Shown: positions 23,780-31,169 of the stretch, in pieces
Layout: every line of letters begins with the position of its first letter
Numbering within the stretch: position 1 is the first letter of the stretch
Assembly: GCF_034377285.1 (NCBI RefSeq)
Contig: NZ_CP139715.1
Location: 1,534,001-1,598,000 of the forward strand
Reading direction: 5' to 3'
Origin: Thalassobaculum sp. OXR-137
GTDB lineage: Bacteria > Pseudomonadota > Alphaproteobacteria > Thalassobaculales > Thalassobaculaceae
DNA: 64,000 bases
Notes under the pieces: model-generated
What the model was told of the DNA's origin: nothing
Databases searched by the model: none
The model's input: only the letters and a program-made list of their open reading frames with translations
Position numbers and translations under genes: made by a program

Positions 23780-24595
23780 TCAGCGGAAGAGCGACAGGAT
23801 GTTCATCGGGGCGCTGGCCGCGGAGCTCAGGGCCTGCACCGCGAGCTGCTGCTTGACCTGCAGCGCGCTCTGGTTGGCGGCTTCCTGGGCCAGGTCGGCG
23901 TCGACCATGTTGCCCAGGCCCTTCTCGGTGGCATCGCTCAGCTTGCCGATGAAGTCGCTGTGCATGTCCAGCGCCTTGCCGTCGCTGCCCAGCGAGCTGA
24001 TCGCGCTGTTCACCGCGCTCTCGAAGGTATCCAGGGCGGCCAGGGTGGCCCGGGCGTTGGTGGCGTCGGAGACGTCGACCGCGCCATCCAGGGTCGTCTT
24101 GGCGGTCTCGATGTCGGCGGCGGAGACCGTCATGGTCGTGCCGTCGGCGGCCGCGACGAAGCTGATGTCGGTCGAGGCGGTCTGCAGCAGGTTCGAGCCG
24201 TCGAAGTTCGAGTTGGAGATGAACGAGTCCACCTGGGCCAGCATCGAGTTCAGGTCTTCGGTATAGCTGGCGCGGGTCTCGGCACTGATGCTGTCGTCGG
24301 CGAGCTGGGTCACCTTCTCGCGGATCGATCCGGTCAGGTCGCTGACCGCGGTGGCACCCGCCATGGCGACCTCGACCGAACCCTTCACGCCGTTCAGCGA
24401 CTGGTCGATCTTGTCGAAGGCCTTGATGTCCGAACGCAGGCGCTGGGCGACGGCGAAGGTCGACGCATCGTCGAAGCCGTCGGCGACCTTGAGGCCCGTG
24501 GAAATCCGCTTCTGGACCTGGGACAGGTCGTTGGAGGCGGAGTTGTACATCTGGACAGCGGCCATGGCGCTGGAGTTGGTGTTGATCGAAAGCAT
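23780..24595 (-). CDS. Flagellin
   Basis: The 271-residue flagellin has the conserved N-terminal D0/D1 (LSINTNSSAMAAVQMYN, then LSQVQKRISTGLKVADGFDD) and C-terminal D1/D0 (ALQVKQQLAVQALSSAASAPMNILSLFR) with a short middle domain. It polymerises into the flagellar filament after export. GAGGAG lies before ATG 24595; an in-frame upstream start at 24628 has no support. flaF follows. The leader contains a CAGTG-TTCT-CACTG hairpin, a position where Caulobacter FlbT acts on flagellin mRNA. Confidence 0.94.
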   Translation of the reverse strand: MLSINTNSSAMAAVQMYNSASNDLSQVQKRISTGLKVADGFDDASTFAVAQRLRSDIKAFDKIDQSLNGVKGSVEVAMAGATAVSDLTGSIREKVTQLADDSISAETRASYTEDLNSMLAQVDSFISNSNFDGSNLLQTASTDISFVAAADGTTMTVSAADIETAKTTLDGAVDVSDATNARATLAALDTFESAVNSAISSLGSDGKALDMHSDFIGKLSDATEKGLGNMVDADLAQEAANQSALQVKQQLAVQALSSAASAPMNILSLFR

Positions 24596-24616
24596 CGTGG
24601 TTCTCCTCGTTTGGAC

Positions 24617-24630
24617 CAGTGTTCTCACTG
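24617..24630 (-). promoter_or_regulatory. Small hairpin in the flagellin mRNA leader
   Basis: CAGTG and CACTG (with TTCT between on the plus strand) form a perfect 5-bp stem just upstream of the flagellin ribosome binding site. It could mask or expose translation signals. No sigma-28 or sigma-54 promoter matched convincingly in the AT-rich DNA upstream. Confidence 0.4.
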
Positions 24631-24786: not shown

Positions 24787-25509
24787 TTACTTACTGTTAA
24801 CGGCGGCGGCGAAAACGTACCCGATGCCGCGTACCGTCTGGATGAGACGGGGATTGGACTGATCCTCTTCGATCTTGCGACGGATACGACCGATCAACAC
24901 GTCGATCGAGCGTTCGTATCCCTCGCACCGACCGCCTCGGGTCTCGTCGAGAATCTGCTGCCGGGTCAGCGGCCGCAGCGGGTTCTGAACGAAGCAGCGC
25001 AGGATGTCGAATTCGCCGCTGGTCATGTCGACCTCGCCCTCGGTCTCGCTGAAGACGCGGCGGCGCACCACATCGAGGGACCAGCGGCCGAAGCGCATGA
25101 CGGTCATGGCCTGCGGCGTGCCGCTGGCGCCGTCGGCGGCGCGCATGCGGCGCATGATGGCGCGGACCCGGGCGGAAACTTCGCGGGGAGAGATGTCGCG
25201 CTCCACCACGTCGTCGGCGCCGAGCTCGAGGGCAATGATGCGGTCTACCGACTGGTTGGCGGCGCTGAGCGCGATCATCGGGCGGTCGTCGCGGCTGCGG
25301 AATGCACGGATATCCTCGAAGCCGCTCTGGCCGGCGGGGGAAAGTGCGACGATCACGCAATCCGGCCGGCTGGGGCCGTCGAGGGTGTCGAGGTCCGACA
25401 TGGAGGCCACGGCGTCGACCGAGAAATGGTTGTCGCGGAGCTGGGCGGCGAGGGTGTTTCGGGCGTGAGTGTCGCCGTCGACGAGGGCAATGCAGGCTGT
25501 TGTCGCCAT
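24787..25509 (-). CDS. OmpR-like regulator with degenerate receiver
   Basis: The 240-residue protein has an OmpR/PhoB-type winged helix at the C-terminus (FDILRCFVQNPLRPLTRQQIL, then the recognition helix in RSIDVLIGRIRRKIE and the RGIGYVF wing). Its receiver-like domain lacks key residues: the phosphoacceptor position is Ala55 (VIVALSPAG instead of V-L-D), and the Lys position is Arg104 (VVERDIS). It is probably a pseudo-receiver not switched by phosphorylation. ATG 25509 is preceded by AGAAGGA. It is divergent from the HDOD response regulator, near the flagellin gene. Confidence 0.85.
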   Translation of the reverse strand: MATTACIALVDGDTHARNTLAAQLRDNHFSVDAVASMSDLDTLDGPSRPDCVIVALSPAGQSGFEDIRAFRSRDDRPMIALSAANQSVDRIIALELGADDVVERDISPREVSARVRAIMRRMRAADGASGTPQAMTVMRFGRWSLDVVRRRVFSETEGEVDMTSGEFDILRCFVQNPLRPLTRQQILDETRGGRCEGYERSIDVLIGRIRRKIEEDQSNPRLIQTVRGIGYVFAAAVNSK

Positions 25510-25660
25510 CGGAGTCCATCCTTCTGTCTGGGGGTCCGGTTGTTCAAGACGCGTCTTTCGGCGCGCATCCGGAAACTGCCTGAACGGTCGGGAGGCTCGT
25601 ATCCCCATTTAGGAGGGTGCCGCTGCGTTCGCCCATGTATTCTTGCGTCAGGGGGTGGAG

Positions 25661-26818
25661 ATGGACCGACCTCGGATCTTTTTCGTCGATGACGAGCCGC
25701 ATGTGCTCAACGGCCTGCGCCGGATGCTCCGCAGCCGCCGCGATACGTGGGAGATGATGTTCTTCGAGGATCCGCGCCGGGCGCTGCTGGCCTGCGGTGC
25801 CGAACCGGCGACGGTGGTGGTGTCCGACATGCGAATGCCCGGCCTCGACGGCGGGGCCTTGCTCGACATTCTGCGCGAGCGGTTTCCGCAGACGATCCGA
25901 TTCGTGCTGTCGGGCCAGAGCCAGGCGGAGGCCGGATTGCGGGCAGCCGGCATCGCCCACCAGTATCTGTCGAAGCCGACCGACGGACCGACGCTGATCT
26001 CCGCCATCGAGGACGCGCTGGTCCTGCGCGAACGGTTGGGCGGCGAGGCGGTGGTGCGGCTGGTCGCCAGCCTCACCGCGATTCCCGCCCTGCCGGGCTC
26101 CTACCGCGAGCTGACCGAGCAACTCCGTCACGACACCCTCGACACCGAGGCGATCGCCGAGACGATGGCGCGCGACCCGGGCATCGCGACCCGGCTGATC
26201 CAGGTCGCCAATTCGAGCTATTTCGGAGCGGCGAAACGAATCGCCACGGTCCGCGGGGCGGTGCAGTTCCTGGGAATGGAGACGCTGAAATCCCTGGTGC
26301 TGACCTATGGGGTGCTGAGCCAGGTGGTGCACGACCGCATCGACGGCGCCCCGGTCGCGCAGCAGATCGTGGAGACCATGCTGCTGAAATCCGCCCTGTC
26401 GTCGCGGATCGCGCAGGACCTGGGGTGGGACCGGGCCGAGCGCGAACTGGTCGCCACGGTGGGGCTGCTATCCGATGTCGGGCTGCTGGTGCTGAGCGAT
26501 AATTTTCCGACCAGCTTCGCGACCCGGATCGTCGACGGGGTGCTGCAGATGGAGGGGCTCGCCGAGTTCGAGCGGTCGACATTCGGGGTCGATCACGCCC
26601 TGGTCGGCGCCTATCTCCTGGGAACCTGGGGACTGCCGGATTCGCTGACCGGCGGAGTGGCAGAGCAGGCGCTCGGAGAGTTCGGGGAGCTCGCCACGGC
26701 CGGTCAGATCGTGGCGCTGGCCGGCCGGTTGATGCTGGGGGACGATCTGTCCGAGTTCCATGGCCGATGGCCGATTGAGGCCTGGGCCGCGGCGGCCCGG
26801 GAGAGCGCGCCGCTTTGA
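25661..26818 (+). CDS. Response regulator with HDOD output domain
   Basis: The 385-residue protein has a full receiver at residues 1-120 (VDDE, phosphoacceptor D56 in VVSDMRMPG, Lys in YLSKPTD) and an HDOD domain from about 140 to 340 (IPALPGSYRELTE, then VANSSYFGAAKRIATVRGAVQFLGME). HDOD output domains act in signalling and in regulation of motility or biofilm, but lack the HD-GYP catalytic set, so the direct output is unknown. GGGGGTGGAG precedes ATG 25661. The receiver opening (FFVDDE..VL.GLRRMLRSR) resembles that of the LuxR-type regulator at 22201-23211. Confidence 0.87.
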   Translation: MDRPRIFFVDDEPHVLNGLRRMLRSRRDTWEMMFFEDPRRALLACGAEPATVVVSDMRMPGLDGGALLDILRERFPQTIRFVLSGQSQAEAGLRAAGIAHQYLSKPTDGPTLISAIEDALVLRERLGGEAVVRLVASLTAIPALPGSYRELTEQLRHDTLDTEAIAETMARDPGIATRLIQVANSSYFGAAKRIATVRGAVQFLGMETLKSLVLTYGVLSQVVHDRIDGAPVAQQIVETMLLKSALSSRIAQDLGWDRAERELVATVGLLSDVGLLVLSDNFPTSFATRIVDGVLQMEGLAEFERSTFGVDHALVGAYLLGTWGLPDSLTGGVAEQALGEFGELATAGQIVALAGRLMLGDDLSEFHGRWPIEAWAAAARESAPL

Positions 26819-27757: not shown

Positions 27758-28279
27758 ATGAAACTTCTCAGCCCTGCGCTGATCGCCGTCTGCGCGGCGG
27801 TGGCGATCTTCGTCAGCTTGCCGATTTCCGCGGAAGCCGACGGCCTTTCCAAGCCGACCGGGCGCGTCATCCTCGTCGTGTCCGGCGAGATCGGGAACAC
27901 GAATGCCGGTGACAAGGCGGAATTCGACCGCGCCCAGCTCGAGGCGCTGGATCCCGGCGTGATCGAGACCTCGACGCCCTGGACCGAAGGCGTGCAGCGT
28001 TTCGAAGGCTTTCCGATCAAGGCTCTGCTCGACGCCGTCGGAGCGACGGGCACGAGCGTGCGCGCCACCGCCATCAACGACTATGCGGTGACGATGCCGA
28101 TCGACGATCTGGTCGGCGCCGGAGGGTTCGTGGCGATCCGTCACAATGGCGAGCCGATGAAGATCCGCGAGCGCGGACCGCTGTGGATCATCTTCCCGTA
28201 CGACACGGATTCGCGGCTGACGGGGGACGACTTCCTGAACTGGTCCATCTGGCAGCTTAAGTCGCTCGAGATCCAGTAA
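27758..28279 (+). CDS. Secreted sulfite-oxidase-fold (molybdopterin-binding-like) protein
   Basis: The 173-residue protein has a signal peptide (cleavage near ISAEA at residue 28) and a small domain like the SUOX/oxidoreductase molybdopterin-binding fold (GVQRFEGFPIKALLDAVGA near residue 80, RERGPLWIIFPYD near 139). The only Cys lies in the signal peptide, so the molybdenum-coordinating Cys is absent. It is probably a binding or sensing protein rather than an enzyme. The hybrid kinase gene begins on the base right after its stop, pointing to a periplasmic ligand-sensing role. GGAG precedes the ATG. Confidence 0.75.
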   Translation: MKLLSPALIAVCAAVAIFVSLPISAEADGLSKPTGRVILVVSGEIGNTNAGDKAEFDRAQLEALDPGVIETSTPWTEGVQRFEGFPIKALLDAVGATGTSVRATAINDYAVTMPIDDLVGAGGFVAIRHNGEPMKIRERGPLWIIFPYDTDSRLTGDDFLNWSIWQLKSLEIQ

Positions 28280-30187
28280 ATGCCTCACCGCGCTCCGAGG
28301 TTCAGACCGACACAACTCAGCCTGCTTGCGCTGCTGGCCATCTTTACGGCCATCGGCGCGGCGGTGCTGGCGGTGTCCATCTATATCTCGATCGAGCGCC
28401 AGATCGATCGACCGACCGAGAACTGGCAATGGGCGGTCTATCAGCTTCAGGCCGAACATCTGAAATTGATGAGTGCGGCCCAAGAGGCCAAGTCCGGAGA
28501 AATCGACTACGGGGCGTTGCAGGAACGCTACGAGATCTTCGTCAGCCGCATCCTCACGGTCAACCAGGGGGAAGCCTATCGGGGCCTGCGCGAGAGCCCG
28601 GAATTGAAGGATCTGCTGCCGGCGATCCTTCAGGCCGTGGACCTTCTCGATGCGATGATCGTCCAGGACGATCCGCCGGCCTTCGTTCTCGGCAAGCGGC
28701 TCGAGGAGACGCTGGAACGCTTCGCCGAGCCGCTCCAGGCGGCAGCGCTGGACGTGGTCGCCTTCAGCGCCGGCATCCGCGCCGCCGAGCGCAACCGCAT
28801 CCATGACGAGATGCTGTCCCTGATGATCTGCCTGTCGGTCATGCTGGTGATCAGCGGACTGCTCGGCGGCGTGACGATCAAGCAGATTGCAGAGTTGTCG
28901 GGCAGCCGGCGGCGCCTGACCGAGGCGCTGACCCTTGCCGAGAAATCCAATCAGGCGAAAAGCCGCTTCGTCGCCAGCATGAGCCACGAAATGCGAACGC
29001 CGCTGAACGCGATGACGGGCCTGCTGCGCGAGATCGGCCATATGACCCGCAATCCGGAGATCGCCCGCCTGGTCGAGGTGGCGCAATCCTCCGCCGGCAT
29101 GCTGTGCGGCCTGGTCGAGGACGTCATCGACGTCGTCCGCATCGAGTCCGGCAAGTTCCAGATCAATGCCACCAGCTTCGAGGTCGGCCCGCTGCTGCGC
29201 GAGGCCATCGACCTGCTGGCGGAACGGGCACGGGACCGCAACAACATCCTGTCCCTGGACATGACCGATGTCCCGATATCGACGGTGCGCGCGGACCGCG
29301 CGCGGATCAAGCAGGTGCTGGTCAATCTCATCGGCAACGCGGTGAAGTTCACTCGCGACGGTTCGGTCGACGTGCATGCGCGTATCGCCTTCGTCGGTCG
29401 CGGCCAGGTCCGCCTGCGGGTCAGCGTCTGCGACACCGGCATCGGGATCGCCCATGACCAGCAGGAGCGGATCTTCCAGCGCTTCTATCAGACGGGCGAG
29501 GGCAGCGCCGAGGGGATCGGTCTCGGGCTGTCCATCAGCCGCGACATCGTGGAGCGTCTGGGCGGCCGCATGGCGATGACCAGCACGCCGGGGCAGGGCA
29601 GCATCTTCTGGTTCGAAGTTCCGGTCCAGGTCGCGGTGGAGGCGGCCGCCCCCGAGGCCCCGGCGCCGGTGATGCACCGGCCGCTGGCCGGCCTGCGATT
29701 CCTGGTGGCGGAGGATAACGGCACCAACCGTCAGGTCATCCAGCTTCTGCTCGCACGCCTGGGCGGGACCTGCGTTTTCGCCTTGGACGGCCTGGATGCG
29801 GTCGCCAAGGCGCGCAGCGAGCCTTGCGATCTGATCCTGATGGATATCAACATGCCCGAAATGGACGGCGTCACGGCGTTCAACGAAATCGGACGGCTGC
29901 TCGGCGACGCCCGGCCGCCGGTCATCGCCCTGACCGCCAGCGCGATGCCGGAGGACGTGGAGGGCTTCACCGCCGCCGGCATGGCCGGCTGCGTGACCAA
30001 GCCGATCGGGGAGGCGGATCTGGTGCGCGAGATCCTCCGCGCCCTTGGGCGTGACCCCGCTGCCGGTCTAGATACCGACTCCGCGAGCCGGGCGCCTGTC
30101 CAGACGCCCGCTCCCGCCGCCGCTCCCCTGACCGATCGCCAAAGGTCGGCGGTGCTGGGGCTGGTGGCGCAATTGGACGATGATTGA
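28280..30187 (+). CDS. Hybrid sensor histidine kinase with receiver domain
   Basis: The 635-residue kinase has TM1 at about residues 12-37, a short periplasmic region, TM2 at about 176-200, a HisKA domain with H236 in SMSHEMRTPLN, an ATPase domain at about 340-455 (NAVKF, DTGIGI, GLGLSI), and a C-terminal receiver at about 475-590 with D522 in LMDINMPEMDG. A short Pro/Ala-rich tail follows. It should pass phosphate from H236 to D522 and on to an HPt-type protein, probably the next gene's C-terminal part. Its ATG follows directly on the stop of the SUOX-fold gene. Confidence 0.9.
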   Translation: MPHRAPRFRPTQLSLLALLAIFTAIGAAVLAVSIYISIERQIDRPTENWQWAVYQLQAEHLKLMSAAQEAKSGEIDYGALQERYEIFVSRILTVNQGEAYRGLRESPELKDLLPAILQAVDLLDAMIVQDDPPAFVLGKRLEETLERFAEPLQAAALDVVAFSAGIRAAERNRIHDEMLSLMICLSVMLVISGLLGGVTIKQIAELSGSRRRLTEALTLAEKSNQAKSRFVASMSHEMRTPLNAMTGLLREIGHMTRNPEIARLVEVAQSSAGMLCGLVEDVIDVVRIESGKFQINATSFEVGPLLREAIDLLAERARDRNNILSLDMTDVPISTVRADRARIKQVLVNLIGNAVKFTRDGSVDVHARIAFVGRGQVRLRVSVCDTGIGIAHDQQERIFQRFYQTGEGSAEGIGLGLSISRDIVERLGGRMAMTSTPGQGSIFWFEVPVQVAVEAAAPEAPAPVMHRPLAGLRFLVAEDNGTNRQVIQLLLARLGGTCVFALDGLDAVAKARSEPCDLILMDINMPEMDGVTAFNEIGRLLGDARPPVIALTASAMPEDVEGFTAAGMAGCVTKPIGEADLVREILRALGRDPAAGLDTDSASRAPVQTPAPAAAPLTDRQRSAVLGLVAQLDDD

Positions 30188-30200
30188 GGATACCCCGGCG

Positions 30201-31169
30201 ATGAGCACACCCTCCGCCAACGACGCCCGGTTCCAGGGACGCAGCGCCCTCGTCATCGACGACAGCCCGCTGATGCGGCAGCTCATACGGTCGCTGCTGC
30301 GCCAGTTCGGCTTCTCCACGGTGGACGAGGCGGCGGACGGGTCGGCCGCCCTGCGCCAGGTCGAGCGGCACCGCTACGACGTGGCGATCTGCGACTGGAT
30401 GATGGAGCCGACCGACGGGTTCGGGTTCCTGCGCGCGCTGCGGCGGCATCAGGACCCGGCATGCTTCGGCCTGCCGGTGATCATGGTGACCTCGGTCGCC
30501 AACAAGTCCCAGGTGCTCGCGATGCGCGACCAGGGCGTTATCGAGTATCTGGTGAAGCCGATCTCGGCACAGAAGCTGGAGCAGCGGCTGGTCTCCGCCT
30601 TGACCCGTCCGCGCAACCTGATCATGACGGACGCCTATTCCGGCCCCGACCGCCGGCGGCGGCAGGATCCCGCCTATGCCGGGCCGCGGCGCCGGCTGGA
30701 GGACAAGATGGCCGCCCTGCCCTGGGACGAGGGCGAGGAAGATGCGGCGATCCGTCGGGCCACCGAAGAGCTGCCCGATTACGCGGAGGTCCTCGGCCGG
30801 GACCTGGAGAAGCTGCGCGGCCTTCTGGCCGAGCTGGAGGCGGCGGTCGAGCCGCCGGTGGAGACGTGGCGGCGGATCTTCCGGATCGCCCACGACATTT
30901 CCGGTCAGGCGCCCAGCTTCCGACATCCGGCCGCGGCTGCGGTGGGAAACAGCCTGGAGCGGCTTCTGCAACCGATCCTGAAGAAGCCGGAGCTCCTGCG
31001 GCTCGCCGCCAACCGACGCTTGCGGGCGGTGCGCACCCATGTGGAGGCCCTGGCCCTGCTGCTGGAGGAAGGCATCACCGACACCTCGGCGGAGACCGGG
31101 ATGCTGATCGAACGGCTGCGTCTGGCGGTCGACCGGGTGCGTCGGGAAGAACGGGACGGGGCGCCCTGA
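30201..31169 (+). CDS. Response regulator with C-terminal HPt-like domain
   Basis: The 322-residue protein has a receiver (VIDDSPLMRQ, D65 in AICDWMMEP, Lys in YLVKPIS), a linker with SGPDRRRRQ, and a helical C-terminal region with RIAHDISGQAPS near residue 230 that resembles the His box of HPt domains. It could relay phosphate with the hybrid kinase upstream, or act as a scaffold. The start is ATG 30201, with GAGGA about 10 bases upstream; ATG 30180 overlaps the kinase stop and is an alternative. Confidence 0.75.
   Translation: MSTPSANDARFQGRSALVIDDSPLMRQLIRSLLRQFGFSTVDEAADGSAALRQVERHRYDVAICDWMMEPTDGFGFLRALRRHQDPACFGLPVIMVTSVANKSQVLAMRDQGVIEYLVKPISAQKLEQRLVSALTRPRNLIMTDAYSGPDRRRRQDPAYAGPRRRLEDKMAALPWDEGEEDAAIRRATEELPDYAEVLGRDLEKLRGLLAELEAAVEPPVETWRRIFRIAHDISGQAPSFRHPAAAAVGNSLERLLQPILKKPELLRLAANRRLRAVRTHVEALALLLEEGITDTSAETGMLIERLRLAVDRVRREERDGAP

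Follow-up and report, generated by a model that had tools for sequence, protein, structure and literature searches.

Introduction

PruR has been described as a periplasmic pterin-binding protein of the sulfite oxidase (SUOX) fold that lacks the molybdenum-ligand Cys (Rucker, Augusta, Fuqua and Allen 2026, PMC13259868). Its gene lies directly upstream either of the gene for DcpA, a c-di-GMP enzyme, or of a gene for a sensor kinase whose periplasmic domain is DcpA-like and carries a WX7E motif, and the PruR-sensor kinase pairs, for example that of Ruegeria pomeroyi DSS-3, have been named PruR-DTB (DcpA-TorS-BaeS), with Greenwich et al. 2024 cited for the original work (PMC13259868). In Agrobacterium tumefaciens PruR the residues named for the pterin site are N102, Y104 and W160; of PruR in general, a Trp is stated to take the place of the molybdenum Cys, and the site is reported to be truncated and too small for the molybdenum cofactor, Moco (PMC13259868). 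A third gene for a REC-Hpt protein, an Hpt domain and a phosphorelay are not mentioned in that review.

In this study, three adjoining genes of Thalassobaculum sp. OXR-137 were analysed within a window of 64,000 nucleotides, the whole stretch of DNA under study, to which the coordinates below refer unless a genome or locus prefix is given. The initial annotation had proposed that a SUOX fold was reused here as a periplasmic ligand sensor that feeds a multi-step phosphorelay; homology and the published PruR work support the sensor part, which has already been published under the name PruR-DTB. We conclude that the three genes very probably form a PruR-DTB pterin-sensing system, made up of PruR and a hybrid kinase, with the Hpt step supplied in trans by a REC-Hpt protein. 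The locus resembles PruR-DTB in having pruR directly upstream of the kinase gene, no molybdenum Cys, a W-x7-E periplasmic domain and a TorS-like hybrid kinase, but differs from PruR-DTB as described in that the kinase has no PAS domain and is followed by the REC-Hpt gene. It likewise resembles A. tumefaciens PruR-DcpA, the PruR proteins being 46% identical and the sensor domain being related by profile to that of the GGDEF-EAL partners, while a GGDEF-EAL enzyme that acts on c-di-GMP provides the output in A. tumefaciens and a histidine kinase does so here.

Results and discussion

Gene arrangement

The three genes lie on the forward strand in the following order.

27758-28279, plus strand: PruR homologue of the SUOX fold, 173 aa (Pfam, PDB sequence search, modelled fold)
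28280-30187, plus strand: DTB-type hybrid histidine kinase, 635 aa (Pfam, NCBIfam, alignments A3 and A5)
30180-31169, plus strand: REC-Hpt phosphorelay protein, up to 329 aa (Pfam, conserved place, model)

The SUOX-fold gene had been noted to end one base ahead of a hybrid kinase gene, and this is exact: the pruR TAA (28277-28279) directly precedes the kinase ATG (28280-28282). The further claim that the third gene overlaps or nearly abuts the end of the kinase gene agrees with both of its candidate starts, namely 30180, which gives an 8-base overlap, and the Met conserved in its relatives at 30201, which leaves a 13-base gap. A triad of PruR, a kinase whose last domain is REC and a REC-Hpt protein recurs in fixed order and with near-overlapping spacing in six Thalassobaculaceae genomes; Thalassobaculum litoreum DSM 18839 carries it. 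This constant order, together with the linkage across 62 loci described below, rules out chance adjacency. Upstream of the triad, the window holds a flagellin-like gene (23780-24628, minus strand), a winged-helix response regulator gene (24787-25608, minus strand) and a gene for a REC-HDOD protein (25643-26818, plus strand); no indication of membership in the triad was found for these genes between 23780 and 26818.

The SUOX-fold protein and its probable pterin site

The features of the first protein are listed here.

27758-27835, plus strand: putative N-terminal signal peptide, about residues 1-26, recognised by eye (MKLLSPALIAVCAAVAIFVSLPISAEA, with a hydrophobic core and an AXA-like end)
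28076-28084, plus strand: N107-D108-Y109, corresponding to N102 and Y104 of A. tumefaciens PruR; in alignment A1 Y109 is invariant and N107 is kept in at least 90%
28250-28252, plus strand: W165, corresponding to the pterin-associated Trp W160 of A. tumefaciens PruR, invariant in alignment A1

Its Pfam match to the molybdopterin domain PF00174 (25.2 bits against a cut-off of 24), and the automatic annotation of plasmid homologues as 'molybdopterin-dependent oxidoreductase', would fit a small molybdenum-cofactor enzyme whose kinase neighbour is incidental. The window protein does share the fold of the SUOX/YedY molybdoenzymes and a weak sequence match to them, but it has no molybdenum-ligand Cys, is truncated and gives no hint of catalysis. 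Its sole Cys, Cys12, lies inside the putative signal peptide, so that the mature chain would be without Cys, and the column that holds the molybdenum-ligand Cys in two SUOX proteins of the same genome is occupied by Thr in all 13 aligned PruR sequences. In alignment here the conserved Trp stands four residues past the molybdenum-Cys column, unlike the statement that Cys is replaced by Trp (PMC13259868). The initial annotation had described a secreted SUOX-fold protein devoid of the metal Cys and named homologues retaining that Cys and binding molybdenum cofactor as evidence to the contrary; the Thr and the Cys-free mature chain bear the description out, with the signal peptide still putative, and none of the aligned homologues keeps the Cys. 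The protein is also only about 170 aa long, whereas the Cys-bearing proteins of the same genome have 260-370 aa, and for nearly every homologue examined the next gene downstream encodes a signalling protein.

The structural comparisons point the same way. A PDB sequence search with the 173-aa protein gave four significant matches, all of them pterin-binding proteins (7rkb at E 2e-41 and 7kos/7kou at E 1e-38, together with 7kp2 and 7kom), and identity to the solved PruR structures is about 46%. With Foldseek the modelled structure matched PruR of Klebsiella pneumoniae, Agrobacterium fabrum, Vibrio cholerae and V. vulnificus (7kos_A: E 4e-18, rmsd 1.3, target TM 0.95), and molybdenum sulfite oxidases ranked next, far weaker. 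With the Cys missing and with PruR, whose site is reported to be too small for Moco (PMC13259868), as the nearest structural match, the molybdoenzyme reading, which we regard as extremely improbable, was dropped.

On these sequence and model comparisons, the SUOX-fold protein is a PruR homologue, with a reduced pterin as its probable ligand. The same pocket might instead hold a redox metabolite or a small heterocycle other than a pterin, given that even for Agrobacterium PruR the ligand bound in vivo is not settled (PMC13259868) and that identity to the solved proteins is no higher than stated above; we nevertheless consider a ligand other than a pterin quite improbable, as the Asn, Tyr and Trp of the pterin site are all kept and the genome holds a candidate pteridine reductase. 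This candidate (G000:C1:2361923-2362633) carries the TGX3RXG motif (as TGAARRVG) together with YX3K; the NCBIfam model NF006598 (pteridine reductase) gave 74 SDR-like matches, none above its cut-off, and TGX3RXG picked out one of the best 12.

A second group of small SUOX-like proteins, of about 185 aa, was seen in the same genome (L004:1417-1971, that is G000:C1:927027-927554, minus strand) and in L049-L053. It has DGY for NDY and F at the position of the pterin Trp, no kinase was detected nearby, and it forms an unlinked PruR-like branch.

The hybrid kinase

The second protein consists of a transmembrane segment, a helical periplasmic domain, a second transmembrane segment, HisKA, HATPase, REC and a tail of about 45 aa, with the following features.

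28430-28456, plus strand: W51-x7-E59 (WAVYQLQAE) in the periplasmic domain, the DcpA/DTB sensor signature; W and E are invariant in the six triads
28985-28987, plus strand: phospho-acceptor His H236 of HisKA (HisKA match 226-291; H in 58 of 62)
29843-29845, plus strand: phospho-acceptor Asp D522 of the kinase REC (Response_reg match 475-585; D in all 53 of the 62 sequences that have the column)

HisKA, HATPase_c and Response_reg all score far above their Pfam cut-offs, and the best NCBIfam match is TorS (308.6 bits, under the equivalog cut-off of 676.5). Aligned by profile, the sensor domain matched that of the GGDEF-EAL partners (hhalign probability 97.3, E 1.7e-11). Among 62 PruR partners the Trp of the periplasmic motif is present in 55, the Gln at Q55 in 59 and Glu or Asp at the last position in 57, so that on these alignments the motif is better put as W-x3-Q-x3-[ED] than as W-x7-E. 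A model of PruR fused to the sensor domain (in-frame TAA read through; alignment A6, 65 rows) reached a mean pLDDT of 93.1 with a pTM of 0.53; each part was confident and their relative placement was not, and direct fusion strains the geometry.

Linkage of PruR to signalling proteins

The initial annotation had suggested looking in other genomes for adjacency between the SUOX-fold protein and a hybrid kinase. At E 1e-15 or better, a PruR-like protein was found in 79 of 387 evenly drawn alphaproteobacterial genomes. A separate pattern-based search of named genomes, with patterns that bias the set towards close relatives, yielded 62 PruR loci, the top matches being Thalassobaculum litoreum (73% identity) and T. 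fulvum. At each of these loci a sizeable same-strand ORF starts between 20 bases before and 246 bases after the PruR stop. When 62 partner proteins were scanned with Pfam, with the kinase of the window included and one very long ORF left out, HisKA was found in 56, Response_reg in 47, Hpt in 28 and GGDEF with EAL in five. Linkage of PruR to kinases is thus strong, contrary to the lack of conserved linkage that the initial annotation had named as its other refuting outcome.

The partners differ in what follows the receiver domain. Kinases of other, mostly rhodobacterial, alphaproteobacteria often extend 108-162 aa past REC, which is consistent with the 28 Hpt matches, and PruR kinases with such a long tail have no third gene. 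Triad kinases extend only about 45 aa past REC and are all adjoined by the REC-Hpt gene. With short-tailed triad kinases beside a REC-Hpt gene and relatives carrying Hpt in cis, the Hpt step seems to have been relocated onto a protein of its own.

Other types of PruR locus occur within Thalassobaculaceae; in some, a single REC gene comes after a PAS hybrid kinase, and in others the kinase has no REC. In one genus of the family (L040:8005-9513, and at the corresponding position in L041), a PruR-linked PAS hybrid kinase is followed by a HATPase_c_2-REC-SpoIIE phosphatase protein, a neighbour that suggests a partner-switch output for another PruR type. On the conjugative plasmid pAtCFBP6623a of A. 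tumefaciens (L204:3953-7730), a PruR-kinase pair is followed by a gene for an HD-domain phosphohydrolase, a possible link to c-di-GMP.

The REC-Hpt protein, its probable origin and its proposed place in the relay

The third protein was modelled as a REC domain plus a helical bundle, no output domain was found in it, and its phosphorelay residues are the following.

30393-30395, plus strand: phospho-acceptor Asp D72 of the REC half, in the motif CDWMMEP, which is invariant in alignment A2
30891-30893, plus strand: candidate phospho-His H238 of the Hpt half (IAHDISGQAP); H238, D239 and G242 are invariant in alignment A2

In Pfam, Response_reg scores 91.5 bits and Hpt (PF01627) 26.2 bits, barely above the cut-off of 24.6. 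An HPt-like region had been proposed from the start, and a profile check of its His had been advised; the check places the match at residues 209-290, around the invariant H238.

Within the family, the Hpt half is strong in only six of 36 genomes, and these six are those with the closest PruR proteins and carry the REC-Hpt gene at the same place. At E 1e-55 the whole protein was found among the 387 alphaproteobacterial genomes in Thalassobaculaceae only. For the REC half, the closest relative in the same genome is a 180-aa REC protein (G000:C1:1641382-1641885) with the same GPDRRRR linker and 37% identity, and next to it lies the gene for a 165-aa Hpt-like protein (HDLRGQAGTFGYP), whose resemblance to the Hpt half is weak (28% over 72 residues, E 3e-7). 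This REC/Hpt-like pair lies outside the window in the same genome (L160:3333-4401, about G000:C1 1640832-1641900) and also occurs in another genome of the family (L087). To judge from these sequence matches, it looks as if the third gene arose by fusion of copies of such a pair, this being the simplest origin.

Many PruR kinases work without such a neighbour gene and the Hpt score is marginal, so the PruR-kinase pair could be the working unit, with the REC-Hpt protein a separate regulator or phosphate sink that shares the putative operon without being a relay partner. This is unlikely in our judgement, since the order and near-overlapping spacing are constant in the six family genomes, the gene occurs at that strength nowhere else among the 387 genomes, the phospho-acceptor residues are invariant, and the kinase ends in a REC without an Hpt that many relatives have in cis. 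Hybrid kinases with Hpt in trans are known from LuxQ-LuxU and CckA-ChpT. The window proteins would resemble these in that an HK-REC protein would hand phosphate to a separate Hpt protein, but differ in that the Hpt domain shares a chain with a CheY-like REC, and that its gene belongs to the same putative operon as the kinase gene.

Returning to the PruR-DTB system with its Hpt step in trans, the following course may be proposed. Secreted PruR would bind a small pterin, probably a tetrahydropterin, in its Cys-less SUOX fold, and pterin-loaded PruR would contact the helical periplasmic domain of the kinase at W51-E59, which would shift the balance between kinase and phosphatase activity. Phosphate may then pass from H236 to D522 of the kinase and on to H238 of the third protein, presumably in this order, and from H238 either to D72 in a REC-Hpt protein or to some other receiver as a putative final output. 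The Hpt step, in cis in the kinases of many relatives, would thus be supplied in trans.

Conclusions

The PruR-DTB reading rests on the matches to PruR structures, the retained Asn, Tyr and Trp of the pterin site, the loss of the molybdenum Cys and the agreement with the published operon, W-x7-E motif and TorS-BaeS-like kinase, as well as on the profile alignment of the sensor domain, the presence of HisKA in 56 of 62 partners, the confinement of full-strength REC-Hpt matches to the six triad genomes and the candidate pteridine reductase in the genome, below the NCBIfam cut-off as it is. We also lean, with less assurance, towards regarding the locus as a family-specific variant of PruR-DTB, with the Hpt placed on a dedicated REC-Hpt protein fused from copies of a REC/Hpt-like pair, so that a periplasmic pterin signal would enter a split phosphorelay undescribed for PruR. 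Published PruR pterin signalling would explain why a metal-less SUOX fold stands beside a kinase, and assigning the protein to PruR puts right the database name 'molybdopterin-dependent oxidoreductase'. The outputs of PruR-DTB kinases are not described in PMC13259868, and the additional REC-Hpt gene, set against the relatives that carry their Hpt in cis, offers a concrete handle on them.
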